The translations under genes and the position numbers were made by a program. From a virus, in the IMG/VR virus record IMGVR_UViG_3300000576_000011, positions 1 to 33,169 of that record: DNA of 33,169 nt; one strand, 5' to 3'. Position 1 is the first letter of the stretch, and each line of letters begins with the position of its first letter. Below the pieces are notes generated by a model. The model was not told the origin of the DNA. It did not search any database and saw only the letters and a program-made list of their open reading frames with translations. Positions 4,704-31,575 of the stretch are shown in pieces.

Positions 4704-5975
4704 CGACCATTTTTGATCGTTTAAGTTCCAGTGAACTCATATTCCTGCTTCACTGAAGTCTGCCTGTCGGATTCTACGAATCCTTTAGGTCTTACATCTC
4801 CTCCACAGGCAAATCCCGTCGTTGCAACGGTTCTTTTATATTCATTTAACAAATTATTAGCAGCATTAGCATCTCGGTCCATGATAGAATCACAATTATC
4901 ACAACTAAATACTCGGTCAACTAGAGTCAAATCTTTCTTGATCCAACCACAACACGAGCAAGTTTTGGAAGATGGATACCAGCGAGATACTTTATGGACG
5001 ACAGAAACTTTTCTTGATAATGCTTGGACAAAACCGCACCATGATAACTTCTGTATAGCGCCTGATAATTTTCTGTTCTTTTTCATACCTTGAATATTCA
5101 GATCTTCCACTGAAACAACATCATACTGCTTGGCTATCGCTGATGATGTAGTTTCTATGAAGTTTTTATTTATCCTTCGGATCTTTCTATATTGTCTAGC
5201 AACTTTAATGCGAGCTTTATTTCGATTAGAACTTCCTTTCTGTTTTCTGGCATGTCTCTTCTGTAGTGTTTTTAATTTCTTGTATTCTTTACTTAAATCG
5301 GGTGATAAAATGCATTCACCATCACTTGTCACTGCAAATGTCTTGATGCCTAAGTCAATACCAACAGCATTATTTGCATCATAGTGAATTTCTTTTTCTG
5401 GTAACTCACAAAGAATAGACACGTACCAGCGATCTACGTCTTTACTTATAGTGAGTGACTTAACTTTACCTTCTAGCTTCCTGTGCATCTTACATGAAAC
5501 CCAACCTATTTTTGGTAACTTGATTTGGTTGGGTCTAATGATGAAGTGTTGCGGTACATTAAAGGATGGGCTAGAAGATCTTTTTGATTTGAACTTTGGA
5601 AATCCAGCCTGTTTCTTCCTGTTTTTACAAAATCTATTTTTGAAAGCAGCAGCAAGATTCATAGCTGATTGTTGGAGGGATTGGCTATTAATTTCTTTAA
5701 GGAAAGGGTATACATTTTTAAGTTCAACTAATTTATTAGTCAATGAATATCCAAGAATGAATTTACCAGAACTTTCATATTCTGCAATACTTGCTTCTAG
5801 TAGTTTATTATACACAAATCTGCAACATCCGACAGACTTTTCGAAGAATTCCTCTTGTTCTTCTGTAGGGTATAGTCTGAATTTAAACGCTTTATAAATA
5901 TTATTGCTGGACATTTGCTTTCTTTGTCTAGAGGTAATGGAGGTTAGGAGCTCGCGATTACCGTTTCATTTATAA
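4700..5975 (-). mobile_element. IS200/IS605-family element carrying only tnpB (boundaries approximate)
   Basis: The element consists of tnpB (5914..4721) and short ends. At the tnpB 3' side (right end) a 6-bp hairpin with an AAAAAT loop lies at 4703-4720. Upstream of tnpB (left end) GGTAAT/ATTACC arms at 5933-5938 and 5957-5962 form a subterminal hairpin, as IS605 left ends do. No tnpA is present, so it belongs to the IS1341-like, non-autonomous type. In this family an omega (re) RNA is made from the tnpB 3' end through the right end, with its guide taken from the flank. Here the guide would read the phage sequence just below 4700. The exact ends cannot be fixed without an empty site. Confidence 0.65.
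4721..5914 (-). CDS. tnpB: TnpB RNA-guided nuclease (IS605 OrfB)
   Basis: The 397 residues have the full TnpB layout. An N-terminal OrfB helix-turn-helix region (KAFKFRLYPTEEQ, VYNKLLEA) is followed by the RuvC parts GIDLGIKTFAV (D187), VSVEDLNIQGM (E270) and DRDANAANNLL (D346/D348). A zinc ribbon has CSCC at 319-322 and CDNC at 338-341. All three catalytic acids and four cysteines are present, so the nuclease is probably active. TnpB cuts DNA guided by omegaRNA next to a short motif matching the element's left flank, which favours retention and spread of the element. Plus-strand frames inside this gene are shadows. Confidence 0.92.
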   Translation of the reverse strand: MSSNNIYKAFKFRLYPTEEQEEFFEKSVGCCRFVYNKLLEASIAEYESSGKFILGYSLTNKLVELKNVYPFLKEINSQSLQQSAMNLAAAFKNRFCKNRKKQAGFPKFKSKRSSSPSFNVPQHFIIRPNQIKLPKIGWVSCKMHRKLEGKVKSLTISKDVDRWYVSILCELPEKEIHYDANNAVGIDLGIKTFAVTSDGECILSPDLSKEYKKLKTLQKRHARKQKGSSNRNKARIKVARQYRKIRRINKNFIETTSSAIAKQYDVVSVEDLNIQGMKKNRKLSGAIQKLSWCGFVQALSRKVSVVHKVSRWYPSSKTCSCCGWIKKDLTLVDRVFSCDNCDSIMDRDANAANNLLNEYKRTVATTGFACGGDVRPKGFVESDRQTSVKQEYEFTGT

Positions 5976-15686: not shown

Positions 15687-16601
15687 ATGTCCGCACTACT
15701 AGACAAACTAAAGAAGTCTGGGTCTATCAAACACGCATCTATCGTTGAAGATTCAGCATTTTTCAATTCCACAGAAAATGTAAAGACCGATTTACCTATT
15801 TTGAATTTAGCCTTTTCGGGTGATTTCAATAAAGGGTTTTCACCTGGTCTCACTTTCTTGGCCGGTGAATCAAAAAGCTTCAAGACACTTCTAGGTCTTT
15901 ACTGTATGAAAGCTTACCTTGACAAATATCCAGAAGGTATTTGTCTGTTCTATGATTCTGAATATGGCACGACTCCTGATTATCTAAAAACTAATGGTAT
16001 TGATACTTCTCGTGTCCTTCACGTTCCTATTGAGCATGTAGAGCAGTTGAAATTTGATATCGTGAAAAGACTTAAAGATCTAGAACGTGGTGATAAAGTA
16101 TTCATCTTCATTGATTCAATCGGTAACTTAGCATCAGTAAAAGAAGTTGAAGATGCTGAAAATGAAAAATCAGTTGCCGATATGTCTCGTGCTAAGGCAC
16201 TTAAATCTCTATTCAGAATTATTACTCCTTCACTCACAGCTAAAGAACTACCTTGTATAGCAATTAACCACATCTATAAAGAAATGGGTCTTTATCCAAA
16301 ATCTATCATGGGTGGCGGTTGTTTGGTAGAAAATACTGAAGTGCAAATGTATGACGGTAGTATGAAATTTATTCAAGATATTAAAGTTGGCGATTTAGTA
16401 AAAACTTTAGAAGGACCTAAATCTGTAGAACATACTTGGAATCCAGAAACTTTAGAAATTGGCGAACCAGAATGTTTTGAAATAGAATTTGAAGATGGTT
16501 ATACTGTAACTTGTTCTGATAATCACCCCTTTCTGACAGATAAAGGATGGGTTAAAGCTAAGGATCTCACAATAGATATGAATATTGTTTCAGCAGAGTA
16601 A
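15687..16601 (+). CDS. uvsX: UvsX recombinase N-half fused to split-intein N-fragment
   Basis: Residues 1-211 are the N-terminal part of a RecA/UvsX-type recombinase, with Walker A GESKSFKT (60-67, very close to T4 UvsX), Walker B VFIFIDSIG (138-146) and INHIYKEMG. After SIMGGG the protein runs into an intein N-fragment at Cys212 (TGT at 16320). This has block A CLVENTEVQMYDGSMKF and VGDLVKT, and block B CSDNHPFLT then GWVKAKDL, and stops after 93 intein residues. The break falls in the GG-(S/T)-G-MYSA motif equivalent to the RecA L2 DNA-binding loop, so the half is inactive alone. It needs the C-part at 17601 and trans-splicing. Confidence 0.92.
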   Translation: MSALLDKLKKSGSIKHASIVEDSAFFNSTENVKTDLPILNLAFSGDFNKGFSPGLTFLAGESKSFKTLLGLYCMKAYLDKYPEGICLFYDSEYGTTPDYLKTNGIDTSRVLHVPIEHVEQLKFDIVKRLKDLERGDKVFIFIDSIGNLASVKEVEDAENEKSVADMSRAKALKSLFRIITPSLTAKELPCIAINHIYKEMGLYPKSIMGGGCLVENTEVQMYDGSMKFIQDIKVGDLVKTLEGPKSVEHTWNPETLEIGEPECFEIEFEDGYTVTCSDNHPFLTDKGWVKAKDLTIDMNIVSAE

Positions 16602-16628
16602 ATAGTACCATAGTCAAAGTGCATTTTT

Positions 16629-16658
16629 AATAAATAATCCTATACTAAACTATAGGAG
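16629..16658 (+). promoter_or_regulatory. Late promoter plus RBS-hiding hairpin before the homing endonuclease
   Basis: AATAAATA (16629-16636) matches the late-promoter element. A 7-bp stem (16638-16644 with 16651-16657, 6-nt loop) pairs most of the AGGAG ribosome binding site (16654-16658) of the gene starting at 16666. By T4 late-promoter spacing transcription would begin near 16642. This removes the 5' arm and frees the ribosome binding site. Confidence 0.6.
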
Positions 16659-16665
16659 TTTAAAA

Positions 16666-17610
16666 ATGCACGTAGTCTATTTTATAACGTTTATTGATAG
16701 AAAAGATAATAACATCCAACCTTATTATTATATTGGATCAAAATCCAACTGCACTTTTGATGGATATAATATATTAGATAAAAAAGGTAAAATATATTAT
16801 GGTTCTAGTAACAGAAATGACTATCAAAAAATTGTTAGATCAGAAAAAATAAAAGTAGATATTTTATATGAAACAGAAAATTATGACGATTGTTTAAACC
16901 AAGAAAGAAATATACAACTACAAAATGACGTCGTAGTTGATACTCGTTTCTTTAATGCATCTTTGGCACTAGAAAATAATTTTCATAAACCTAATTATGG
17001 TACTTATAGACATATTGAAACTGGAAAGAAAGTACGATTAGAGAAAAATCATCCTAAAGTTTTAGATGGTACTTATATTAATATTAATAAAGGATATAAA
17101 ACATATAATAACGGCACTATACAAAAACAGTTTTTGAATGAAACAGATGTTCCTGAAGGTTGGACAAAAGGTGTTTTAGAAAAAAATAAACTTAAAGGTG
17201 AAAATAATCCATTTTATGGTAAAAAACATACTGAAAAAAGCAAAAAGAAAAATCGTGAGGGACAAGAAAATTTTAAAAAAAATAATCCTGAACTTTATGA
17301 TGAAATGATAGAAAAAAGACGTAAAAGAACTTCATTGACTTTTAAGGGTGTGCCTAAATCAGAAGAATCTAATAGAAAAAGAATTAGACGTAATTTAATA
17401 ATGTTAAAAAATATTCATACAGGTGAATGTGTGCGTGTAGATAAAAAATTCAAAGACGATTATGATTCTAATGTTTGGAAAAACCCTTATGCAGCAAAAA
17501 AACACCAAATGATAAAATGCCCTCATTGTGGTAAAATTAATGAATATAATTCATCTTTCAAAAGATGGCATTTTGATAAATGTAAAAAAAGGAAAATTGA
17601 ATGCGAATAA
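16666..17610 (+). CDS. GIY-YIG homing endonuclease inside the fractured uvsX gene
   Basis: The 314-residue protein has an N-terminal GIY-YIG nuclease domain (VVYFI at 3-7, PYYYIGSK at 19-26, KIYYGSS, and a Glu in NQERNIQLQ). It continues with NUMOD3-type DNA-binding repeats (NPFYGKKHTEKSKKK about residue 183, then a second KGVPKSEESNRKR) and a C-terminal CPHCGK...HFDKC zinc finger. The gene is much more AT-rich than uvsX. It is free-standing: the N-intein stops 64 nt before it, and it overlaps the C-intein start by 10 nt. It probably cuts intein-less uvsX alleles so that the cassette is copied in. No splicing domain is fused to it. Confidence 0.85.
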   Translation: MHVVYFITFIDRKDNNIQPYYYIGSKSNCTFDGYNILDKKGKIYYGSSNRNDYQKIVRSEKIKVDILYETENYDDCLNQERNIQLQNDVVVDTRFFNASLALENNFHKPNYGTYRHIETGKKVRLEKNHPKVLDGTYININKGYKTYNNGTIQKQFLNETDVPEGWTKGVLEKNKLKGENNPFYGKKHTEKSKKKNREGQENFKKNNPELYDEMIEKRRKRTSLTFKGVPKSEESNRKRIRRNLIMLKNIHTGECVRVDKKFKDDYDSNVWKNPYAAKKHQMIKCPHCGKINEYNSSFKRWHFDKCKKRKIECE

Positions 17611-18137
17611 ATTCTATAAAATCAGTAGGTAAAAAACCCGTATATGATATTACCGTGTCAAATATACATCATTATTTTTTAAAAAATGGTGTAGTTACAC
17701 ATAATTCCGGCGGAATGTATTCAGCGAATACTATCTTTTTCATCACTAAAGCACAAGAAAAAGATGGCACTGATCTGGCTGGTTATAAATTCACTATCAA
17801 TATTGAAAAATCACGATATGTCCGTGAAAAATCTAAGTTTCCATTTGTAGTCACTTATGAAAAAGGTATAGACAAATATTCCGGTCTCCTTGATTATGCT
17901 CTACAAGGTGAATTTGTTATTAAACCGTCTATGGGTTGGTACCAGAAAGTCGATCCGGATACTGGTGAAGTACTAGAAGGTAAGTACCGAGAAAAGGATA
18001 CTCACACTAAAGAATTCTGGGATATGTATCTAAGTAGTGATAAATTTCTTGATTATTGTTCATCGAGGGTTAAACTTGGTTCAGTGAAACTAGATAAAGA
18101 AGATCTAGTTGAAGAAACATTAAAAGAACTAGAATAA
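17601..18137 (+). CDS. uvsX: Split-intein C-fragment fused to UvsX recombinase C-half
   Basis: The first 35 residues are an intein C-fragment, with block F VYDITVSNIHHYFLKNG and block G VVTHN. They are followed directly by Ser (TCC at 17706), the +1 nucleophile. The remaining 143 residues continue UvsX: SGGMYSANTIFFITKAQ, KDGTDLAGYKFTINIEKSR and KSKFPFVVTYEKGID, all counterparts of T4 UvsX. Joining residues 1-211 of the first part to these gives a 354-residue recombinase with an intact GGGSGGMYSAN junction. It has its own ribosome binding site (AAAGGAAA, 8 nt upstream of the ATG), as a separately translated half requires. The start overlaps the endonuclease gene by 10 nt. Confidence 0.92.
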   Translation: MRINSIKSVGKKPVYDITVSNIHHYFLKNGVVTHNSGGMYSANTIFFITKAQEKDGTDLAGYKFTINIEKSRYVREKSKFPFVVTYEKGIDKYSGLLDYALQGEFVIKPSMGWYQKVDPDTGEVLEGKYREKDTHTKEFWDMYLSSDKFLDYCSSRVKLGSVKLDKEDLVEETLKELE

Positions 18138-19978: not shown

Positions 19979-20068
19979 GGGTGTGCGCCGGAGTTGGAGA
20001 GCCGGGCTTGGCTGTAAACCAGGTGCCTTTGTAGGGCTGAGTAGGTTCGACTCCTACCACACTCACCA
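19979..20068 (+). tRNA. tRNA-Tyr (anticodon GTA)
   Basis: The acceptor GGGTGTG (19979-19985) pairs with CACACTC (20058-20064). The D-arm is CCGG...CCGG, and the anticodon stem CTTGG/CCAGG holds the loop CTGTAAA (anticodon GTA). A long variable arm, expected for bacterial tRNA-Tyr, is followed by the T-arm GTAGG-TTCGACT-CCTAC. CCA is encoded (20066-20068). All arms are intact. Confidence 0.9.
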
Positions 20069-20410: not shown

Positions 20411-20487
20411 ACCCACATAGCTCAACTGAATAGAGCAGCGGATTTCTACTCCGCAGGTTGTAGGTTTGAGTCCTACTGTGGGTGCCA
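20411..20487 (+). tRNA. tRNA-Arg (anticodon TCT)
   Basis: The acceptor ACCCACA (20411-20417) pairs with TGTGGGT (20477-20483). The D-arm is GCTC...GAGC, and the anticodon stem GCGGA/TCCGC holds the loop TTTCTAC (anticodon TCT). The T-arm is GTAGG-TTTGAGT-CCTAC, with discriminator G and encoded CCA. It reads AGA, which is frequent in these AT-rich phage genes. Confidence 0.93.
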
Positions 20488-22242: not shown

Positions 22243-22363
22243 AGAATATTTTGAATTTAGAAAAGGTCGAGACTTCAGACAACGAGAAGTAGATTTACTT
22301 CGAGAAGCAGTACATACTATCAAAAAATTAAGAGAGCAAGTGAAAGAGGGACCTCAGAAATGA
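22199..22363 (+). CDS. Hypothetical coiled-coil protein, 54 residues
   Basis: The start is ATG 22199 (MDISPIETRLKERIEEYFEF), preceded by GGAGG at about 11 nt. The product is strongly charged and helical (REVDLLREAVHTIKKLREQV). It overlaps the metallopeptidase-like gene by 44 nt, and its stop falls in the loop of the terminator at 22347. Confidence 0.5.
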   Translation: MDISPIETRLKERIEEYFEFRKGRDFRQREVDLLREAVHTIKKLREQVKEGPQK

Positions 22364-22376
22364 GAGTCCCTTTATT
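22347..22376 (+). terminator. Rho-independent terminator with GAAA tetraloop
   Basis: AGGGACCTCA (22347-22356), loop GAAA and TGAG-a-GTCCCT (22361-22371) form a 10-bp stem with one bulged A, followed by TTATT. It ends the middle gene block just before the late promoter at 22377. Confidence 0.7.
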
Positions 22377-22384
22377 CATAAATA
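22377..22384 (+). promoter_or_regulatory. Late promoter element CATAAATA
   Basis: CATAAATA lies 24 nt before the ATG at 22408 and directly after a terminator. It matches the T4-type late element recognised by the phage sigma gp55. Confidence 0.6.
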
Positions 22385-22407
22385 ATTGAAAAACAGGACT
22401 CTCCAAT

Positions 22408-22815
22408 ATGCTATCATTTAAAGATTATCTATTTGAAAAAGAATGTCAACAAGTTACCAAGGCTGAATTAGCAAAATTCGAAGGAATAGTAGACCAACTA
22501 TTCAAAAAATTTGATATCAACTTTGATTTCACTAAACACTTTCATGAACGAATGTCTCATTCTCGGAATAACCCTTGCATTGAACTAAAAGAAATTGGTA
22601 AGATGATCACGAAGATCTATAAAGAGAAGTTGAAGGGTAAACACCGAATCAGTGATATGAAGGGTCTGGAAGCAGTTCTCCATGATGTGAATTCTAAGAT
22701 CAATATTCCTGTGGCAATTGAGTATGATAAACGAAATGATGAATTGAGAATAGCGATGAAGACGATAATGAGAAAGAAGGACTTTAAGTCACCTGATCCC
22801 ATATTGAGATATTAA
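22408..22815 (+). CDS. Conserved T4-like phage protein, 135 residues
   Basis: The protein opens MLSFKDYLFEKECQQVTKAE and contains FTKHFHERMSHSRNNPCIEL, NIPVAIEYDK and a C-terminal TIMRKKDFKSPDP. This pattern recurs in proteins encoded near structural genes of T4-like phages, but no function is known to me. It lies under a late promoter, so it is probably made with virion components. Confidence 0.6.
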   Translation: MLSFKDYLFEKECQQVTKAELAKFEGIVDQLFKKFDINFDFTKHFHERMSHSRNNPCIELKEIGKMITKIYKEKLKGKHRISDMKGLEAVLHDVNSKINIPVAIEYDKRNDELRIAMKTIMRKKDFKSPDPILRY

Positions 22816-29431: not shown

Positions 29432-31096
29432 ATGGAAAAATTTTACTGGTTGAATGATGAATCACGGAAATTTCTATCTAGAGGATATTTAAATGAAAAT
29501 GAAAAACCTGAAGATAGAATTCGTGAAATTGCTGATACAGCCGAAAAGTATCTTGGTATAGAAGGTTATGGTGATAAATTTTACGAATATGCTAGTCGTG
29601 GTTACTATTCTTTTTCTTCTCCTGTTTGGGCTAATTATGGTAAGGCACGAGGTCTACCAGTATCATGTTTTGGCTCTTATATAGATGATAATATGGAAAG
29701 TATTCTTTATGGTGTTGCCGAAAATGGTATGCTAATGAAAAATGGTGGAGGAACTTCGGGTTATTTTGGCGCTTTAAGAGGCCGAGGAGCAACTATTACT
29801 AATTCAGGTGAATCATCTGGAGCAGCCCATTTTCTTCAACTATATGATACTCTAGCTTCTGTAGTATCACAAGGTTCTGTTCGGAGAGGATTCTTTTCTG
29901 GATATATTGATATCGATCATCCTGATGCAGATGAATTTCTCGATATTGGTACTGAAGGTAATCCCATTCAGGGACTTACTACAGGCATATGTGTTTCAGA
30001 TGAATTCATTAATGATATGAAGAATGGTAACAAAGAAAATCGTAGGTTATGGGCTAAAGTTCTTCAAAGACGTTCAGAAATTGGTTTCCCTTATATACTT
30101 TACACAGGAAATGTGAATAATAATAAACCTAAAGTATATAAAGATCATAATCTTCCTATCTATGCATCGAATATGTGTGCAGAAATAGCACTACCGTCTT
30201 CTAATACTGAAACATTCACTTGTGTTCTATCATCTATTAATGTTCTTCATTGGGATGAAATTATTCAAACTGATGCTATTGAAGTGATGACTCAATTTCT
30301 TGATACCGTTGTTACTGAATTTATTAATAAAACAGAAAATAAACCTTATTTAGAAAGAGCAAGAGAATTTGCTATTAATCACCGTGCAATTGGTGTTGGT
30401 ATTCTCGGTTGGCATTCTTATCTACAATCTAATATGATTGCATTTGAATCATCTGAAGCTGCTATGAAGAATCTTGAAATTAGTAAAATTTTAAGAGAAA
30501 GGACACATAATGCATCAAAAGAACTTGCTGTTACTCATGGTGAACCACCACTGTTGAAGGGTTATGGTATGAGAAACACCACTACTATGGCTATTGCTCC
30601 AACTAAAAGTTCTAGTTTTATTCTTGGCCAAGTAAGCCAGTCAATTGAACCTGAATTTTCTAATTGTTATGTGAAAGATTTGGCTAAGACAAAAGTTACT
30701 ATCAAAAATCCATATTTGATGAAGATTCTTGAACAGAAAGGAAAAAATTCACCAGAAGTGTGGGATTCAATCAAGATGTATGATGGTTCGGTTCAACATC
30801 TTGATTTTCTGGACGAAAAAGAAAAGAATGTTTTCAAGACATTTTTTGAAATCAATCCATATACTATTATTGATCATGCAGCAGTTAGGCAAAAATATAT
30901 TGATCAAGGGCAAAGTCTTAACTTAATGCTTGATCCAGATATGTCTGTTAAAGATATTAATTCATTATATCTATATGCATGGGAAAATGGTGTGAAATCA
31001 CTTTATTACAGTTTTTCAATGTCGAAAGCACAGTCTTTGACTAGAAAGAAATTTGTCGGTGATATGTCAGAAGGGTGTGCTTCATGTGAGGCATAA
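29432..31096 (+). CDS. nrdA: Ribonucleotide reductase large subunit NrdA (no ATP-cone)
   Basis: The 554 residues form a short class I large subunit. Active-site Cys79 (PVSCFGSYI), N247-x-C249-x-E251 in NMCAEIALPS, Cys264 (TFTCVLSSIN) and a Tyr-Tyr pair in KSLYYSFSMS are all present. The C-terminal CASC (549-552) is the redox pair recharged by a glutaredoxin, and one is encoded at 32491. The usual N-terminal ATP-cone is missing and is found instead on NrdB. Gene order is nrdB-nrdA with an 18-nt gap. Activity should be complete. Confidence 0.95.
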   Translation: MEKFYWLNDESRKFLSRGYLNENEKPEDRIREIADTAEKYLGIEGYGDKFYEYASRGYYSFSSPVWANYGKARGLPVSCFGSYIDDNMESILYGVAENGMLMKNGGGTSGYFGALRGRGATITNSGESSGAAHFLQLYDTLASVVSQGSVRRGFFSGYIDIDHPDADEFLDIGTEGNPIQGLTTGICVSDEFINDMKNGNKENRRLWAKVLQRRSEIGFPYILYTGNVNNNKPKVYKDHNLPIYASNMCAEIALPSSNTETFTCVLSSINVLHWDEIIQTDAIEVMTQFLDTVVTEFINKTENKPYLERAREFAINHRAIGVGILGWHSYLQSNMIAFESSEAAMKNLEISKILRERTHNASKELAVTHGEPPLLKGYGMRNTTTMAIAPTKSSSFILGQVSQSIEPEFSNCYVKDLAKTKVTIKNPYLMKILEQKGKNSPEVWDSIKMYDGSVQHLDFLDEKEKNVFKTFFEINPYTIIDHAAVRQKYIDQGQSLNLMLDPDMSVKDINSLYLYAWENGVKSLYYSFSMSKAQSLTRKKFVGDMSEGCASCEA

Positions 31097-31109
31097 AATA
31101 ATCACATAA

Positions 31110-31157
31110 AACCAGGTCATAAATACTCTGTAAAAGGAGTGTTCTATTGACCTGGTT
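31110..31157 (+). promoter_or_regulatory. Late promoter within a 10-bp inverted repeat that covers a start codon
   Basis: AACCAGGTCA (31110-31119) and TGACCTGGTT (31148-31157) are perfect inverted repeats. The 3' arm covers the TTG start (31147-31149) of the GIY-YIG gene. CATAAATA (31118-31125) lies at the 5' arm, so a late transcript starting near 31131 would lack that arm and leave the start codon free. Confidence 0.6.
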
Positions 31158-31575
31158 CTATAATGGAAAAGAATTTACTGAATTACCAGAAGGATATGTG
31201 GGATTTGTCTATATACTGACTCATAAAAAATCCGGCAAATACTACATCGGTAAAAAAATTTTTCATTTCAAAAAGACAAAGCAGGTCAAGGGGAAAAAGA
31301 AGCGCTTTTTGGTTGAATCGGATTGGAAAGTATATTATGGTTCATCTGATGAAGTCGCTTCAGTGATTCAACAAGAGGGAGAAAACTCTTTTGACAGAAA
31401 AATCCTACGACTCTGTAAGAGCAAAGCTGAATTATCCTATTTCGAAGCTAAGTACCAATTCGAAAAAGATGCTTTACTCGATCCTAACAGCTATAATTCT
31501 TGGATTTCTGTTCGGGTGCGTCGTGCTCACTTAGCAAAACTAATAAAGGAGCTGGAGAATGGCATCCCAGAGTAG
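31147..31575 (+). CDS. GIY-YIG nuclease, TTG start
   Basis: The TTG at 31147 has AGGAG 7 nt upstream. The 142-residue protein contains GFVYILTHKKSGKYYIGKK (GIY and YIG elements at about 20-36), a KVYYGSSDEV motif, FDRKIL and a Glu in SYFEAKYQFE. The same KxYYGSS and downstream spacing occur in the uvsX-linked homing endonuclease, so the two nuclease domains belong to one family. This protein lacks NUMOD repeats and a zinc finger. It may be a stand-alone Seg-like homing nuclease or a domesticated one. Confidence 0.75.
   Translation: MTWFYNGKEFTELPEGYVGFVYILTHKKSGKYYIGKKIFHFKKTKQVKGKKKRFLVESDWKVYYGSSDEVASVIQQEGENSFDRKILRLCKSKAELSYFEAKYQFEKDALLDPNSYNSWISVRVRRAHLAKLIKELENGIPE

Follow-up and report, generated by a model that had tools for sequence, protein, structure and literature searches.

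A hairpin overlapping a late-promoter element as a probable translational delay switch at a SegE-type nuclease gene of an uncultured phage

Does the hairpin at the start of a free-standing GIY-YIG nuclease gene behind nrdA keep that gene silent in early phage RNA and release it in late RNA? Timing of this kind has precedents. The ribosome-binding sites (RBSs) of I-TevI, I-TevII and I-TevIII of T4 are sequestered in early/middle RNA, and that of I-TevI is freed in late RNA (PMC2988022); these genes are intron-encoded, whereas the gene considered here is free-standing. In Aeromonas phage Aeh1, mobE, a free-standing homing endonuclease gene in the nrd region, combines an RBS hairpin with a late promoter (PMC2988022); mobE is of the HNH type, whereas the present gene is GIY-YIG, and the likeness lies in the switch as described. 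T4 gene e (lysozyme) has an early RBS hairpin and late promoters that give transcripts without its 5' part (PMC3014915), and T4 soc is among the genes with RBS-hiding structures (PMC2988022); both resemble the present locus in having a hairpin over the RBS, but neither encodes a nuclease.

The stretch examined is the virus record IMGVR_UViG_3300000576_000011 (33,169 nt, about 33 kb), hereafter the window. The features of the locus are as follows.

29432-31096, + strand: nrdA, the upstream gene and presumed origin of read-through transcripts
31110-31119, + strand: 5' arm of the outer stem, AACCAGGTCA, from sequence and RNA fold
31118-31125, + strand: element CATAAATA of the late promoter, occupying -13 to -6 in T4 numbering and predicting a +1 near 31131
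31122-31129, + strand: 5' arm of the inner stem, AATACTCT, also written AAUACUCU, overlapping the late element; predicted fold, position matching the hairpins of relatives
31135-31139, + strand: Shine-Dalgarno (SD) sequence AGGAG, 7 nt 5' of the TTG; predicted to be paired in read-through RNA and more open in late RNA
31136-31143, + strand: 3' arm of the inner stem, GGAGTGTT, also written GGAGUGUU, including the SD GGAG; predicted fold
31147-31575, + strand: SegE-type GIY-YIG nuclease gene, 142 aa, TTG start (31147-31149); Pfam PF19835 SegE_GIY-YIG, E 2e-33, phrog_447 and homing-endonuclease phrogs
31148-31157, + strand: 3' arm of the outer stem, TGACCTGGTT, spanning the TG of the start codon and codons 2-4

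The 142-aa product of 31147-31575 matches the PF19835 profile with 115.6 bits against a gathering cut-off of 25, and contains the GIY and YIG motifs, GFVY and YxGKK being conserved across 55 SegE-type proteins. At this place, most phages with a close nrdA relative have no SegE-type gene; a few have one there or slightly further downstream, and the genes upstream of SegE relatives belong to many different clusters. This patchy presence behind nrdA, together with the varied neighbours, fits the expectation for a mobile gene, and the nuclease is presumably both active and mobile. A DNA search in phage isolates returned similarity to nrdA only, and two tRNAs (19979-20065 and 20411-20484) are the sole Rfam matches in the window. 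The window also carries, at 4721-5914 on the - strand, an IS605 OrfB/TnpB-like gene (PF01385, PF12323, PF07282).

The hairpin at 31110-31157 is confirmed to be real and beyond chance. AACCAGGTCA and TGACCTGGTT are exact 10-bp reverse complements with 28 nt between them, as the preliminary description of this DNA had stated, and the segment folds with -23.7 kcal/mol (z -6.5), a stability equalled by none of 200 shuffles. Perfect 10-mer arms with loops of 3-40 nt occur in 15 overlapping instances in the window, against 2.3 +/- 2.1 in shuffles, and this pair of arms is one of just two among the 15 with at least five G/C bases. A scan of the 54 gene starts in the window gave its most extreme value (z -5.8) at the SegE-type start, with a start at 16666 second (z -4.7) and one further start beyond z -4. 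That description had also placed the RBS in the loop and the TTG in the stem. The first placement does not stand: an 8-bp inner stem within the 28-nt loop pairs the SD GGAG (31136-31139), so that the SD lies in a stem. The second stands for TG, two of the three bases, and fails for the first T. A stable RBS-pairing hairpin, as in a T4-type early-off/late-on switch, is thus predicted in read-through RNA.

The late element CATAAATA does overlap the outer 5' arm, as previously claimed. Since late elements of T4 begin at -13 (PMC2988020), its eight bases would represent -13 to -6 and +1 would be 31131, which falls within the inner loop. The base at the strict +1 is T, and likelier starts are G at 31130 and A at 31132. 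The sequence ATAAATA is present in the window at chance level (18 against 17.8 expected), so its bare count is uninformative and its placement alone carries information: of the 10 copies in the + strand gene region, 8 have a gene start no more than 100 nt downstream, against an expectation of 16% (binomial P 2e-5). The promoter overlaps or adjoins the 5' arm and, by T4 geometry, late RNA starting at about 31131 would lack not one 5' arm, as had been suggested, but both; such loss of the arm is what a late-on switch entails. Homologues of gp55, the late sigma factor, were found in all seven large relatives searched.

These elements can be combined into a mechanism. Transcription presumably runs on from nrdA, and the read-through transcripts would contain both 5' arms and form the two-tier hairpin, in which the inner stem would pair the SD GGAG and the outer stem part of the start codon and the following codons; because both regions would be paired, we propose that the nuclease is not made early. 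Once gp55-type late transcription is on, RNA polymerase would initiate at about 31131 from CATAAATA, the downstream half of which would double as part of the inner-stem 5' arm. The late leader of about 16 nt would be without both 5' arms, the hairpin could not form and the SegE-type nuclease would be translated. Folding predictions, computed for 37 C, are consistent with these steps: in read-through RNA the probability of an unpaired SD is 0.01 and opening SD and start costs 14.8 kcal/mol, while in RNA starting at 31130-31132 the corresponding values are about 0.45 and 3.3 kcal/mol.

The closest counterpart is T4 segB. Its leader consists of CATAAATACTCT, a short loop, AGGAG and ATG, reading CATAAATACTCTTAGAAATAGGAGATATTTATG; it is nearly identical to the leader in the window, and its first 12 bases are the same. 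Both leaders have SD and start codon within the stem and the late element within its 5' arm, a layout that the I-TevII leader, on inspection of its sequence, also displays. segB, free-standing and of the GIY-YIG type like the gene here, encodes a homing endonuclease, but it is located in the tRNA region, so that the window presents another GIY-YIG gene at another site; it also begins with ATG, whereas the gene here has TTG and its hairpin a distinct outer stem of 10 bp. The site at 31110-31157 very probably delays translation in the manner of T4 segB and I-TevI.

The start ranked second in the scan has a hairpin of its own:

16619-16671, + strand: sister hairpin, with outer stem 16619-16630/16660-16671 and inner stem 16638-16644/16651-16657
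16629-16636, + strand: late element of the sister hairpin, AATAAATA
16666-17610, + strand: second GIY-YIG-type ORF (NUMOD3), between the halves of the intein-split uvsX

The preliminary description was right that this hairpin, cited there by position 16638, differs from the one at 31110-31157 in sequence and agrees with it in architecture; the two sequences are unrelated, and both fold in two tiers. Two different GIY-YIG-type genes of one phage thus have this arrangement of hairpin and late element. For the sister, opening SD and start is predicted to cost 17.2 kcal/mol in read-through RNA against 3.0 in late RNA (37 C); the relatives found for the 16666 protein were so remote that leaders could not be compared. 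The surrounding region (15687-18137) holds uvsX, interrupted by an intein and split into two ORFs, with the nuclease gene between them. At 22362-22410 a hairpin whose loop holds CATAAATA (z -4.2) precedes a 135-aa gene of unassigned function starting at 22408. It was rejected as a third switch: the opening cost is alike in read-through and late RNA (2.4 and 2.3, in wider context), and no consistent hairpin was seen in the relatives inspected.

Comparison covered two samples, one of 80 viral relatives plus the window and one of 80 relatives from another branch. Most of the first 80 relatives have TAAATA 20-35 nt 5' of an ATG with a short hairpin directly after it. Counting these loci and the window together, 33 of 34 elements at SegE starts have a hairpin after them; among other elements the figure is 0 of 57 for those close to an ATG and about 5% for the rest. 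Both samples together provide 108 distinct SegE-like start regions, in which the hairpin is present in 45 of the 49 with an element and in 1 of the 59 without; the P value for this association (1.6e-24) overstates independence because the sequences are related, and counts across SegE starts are of related sequences and not of independent events. Viral contigs contain 66 copies of the module in two exact forms, 62 of them 5' of a SegE ORF; the other four are instances of a single case, with inserted sequence between the beginning of a SegE-like frame and a SegE gene. In L049 (3320-4001), and likewise in L263, L272, L277 and L292, about 680 bp lie between the module with its short SegE-like frame start and the SegE gene, and the insert seems to encode another nuclease gene on the opposite strand.

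The arms themselves offer strong comparative support: they vary among phages, yet match their own partners with compensatory changes. Over 30 distinct segments (29 with arms compared), pairing with the own partner averages -14.1 kcal/mol against -5.1 with foreign arms. In an ungapped set of eight, 72 of 72 cells pair and two-sided changes occur in four of nine pairs, above every slid control. The closest relative found, L082 (NrdA 85%, SegE 54%), keeps CTATAAATACTC and its pairing with GAGTATTT, lengthened, and L106 has an outer stem of different sequence that ends in the start codon. The expectation set out beforehand, that relatives would keep the pairing through compensatory changes, is borne out for the inner stem and the family hairpins but not for the outer 10-bp arms, which have no counterpart in L082; taken alone, the outer stem would fail that expectation. 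By sequence comparison, conservation across the family lies in the SD-pairing inner stem. Not every SegE-like gene has the module or requires it, since many are without element and hairpin: 59 of the 108 distinct starts have no late element, and no such hairpin was found at the folded SegE-like starts of the isolates Melnitz-3, ACP17, RHph_I1_18, phiN3, S-SSM5 (where the annotated start is uncertain), P-SSM2 and S-SRM01.

Two forms of the hairpin can be distinguished in the relatives. In some the SD is paired or enclosed by the stem, as in TAAATA-T-CCCGAA-GGAGA-TTCGGG-ATG. Others, including L016, L023, L129, L131, L352 and L382, have a stem overlapped by the late element and followed by about 6-8 T directly 5' of the SegE ATG; the L129 site, at 2509-2534, scores as intrinsic-terminator-like. 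In both forms the predicted start falls beyond most of the 5' arm, so that late RNA would be without it. The second form may stop early transcripts. Whether the SegE family at large carries late promoter and hairpin as one compact cassette, in an RBS-hiding form and in a terminator-like form that would halt early transcripts immediately 5' of the ATG and could not form in late ones, is a reading we regard as evenly poised; under it, the start site would decide whether the hairpin exists, because the downstream bases of the promoter are its 5' arm.

The T-tract form bears on an alternative, namely that the hairpin at 31110-31157 serves nrdA, by terminating its transcription or stabilising its 3' end, and covers the nuclease start incidentally. 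The hairpin begins 14 nt beyond the nrdA stop, and the equivalent stem with its T tract in a subgroup of relatives resembles an intrinsic terminator; the window hairpin, however, has neither a T tract nor a terminator-like site, its 3' arm lies within the coding start, and it is coupled to the late element and SegE and not to nrdA, which leaves this explanation improbable. Marginally less credence is due to the idea that the inverted repeat is a DNA operator to which the nuclease binds, repressing its own late promoter. Palindrome and late element do overlap, and autorepression through an operator at a late promoter is known for I-TevI (PMC2988022); but the arms vary among relatives with pairing kept and include SD and start region, so RNA pairing fits better than a fixed protein site. 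Operator and RNA switch are compatible, not mutually exclusive. A chance hairpin with the nuclease expressed through plain read-through, suggested by the many SegE-like genes elsewhere without a hairpin and by an outer stem not common to L082, is the least credible and very improbable in view of the z-scores, the position on the promoter, the compensatory changes and the hairpin-element association (45/49 against 1/59).

The early-off/late-on reading is accordingly the one supported, on the basis of sequence, predicted folding, covariation, the hairpin-element association and gp55 in relatives. The mechanism itself is already known from T4 segB, I-TevI/II/III and Aeh1 mobE; judged by the literature searched, the novelty lies in the covariation across the family of SegE-like genes and in the terminator-like form. 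If that form is what it seems, it would extend the switch to a new variant and offer a second, testable route to the same timing. These observations suggest that the delay switch in the style of segB and I-TevI is not a curiosity of T4 but accompanies widespread free-standing nucleases of uncultured T4-type phages, where it appears in varied genomic surroundings and is kept by compensatory change.
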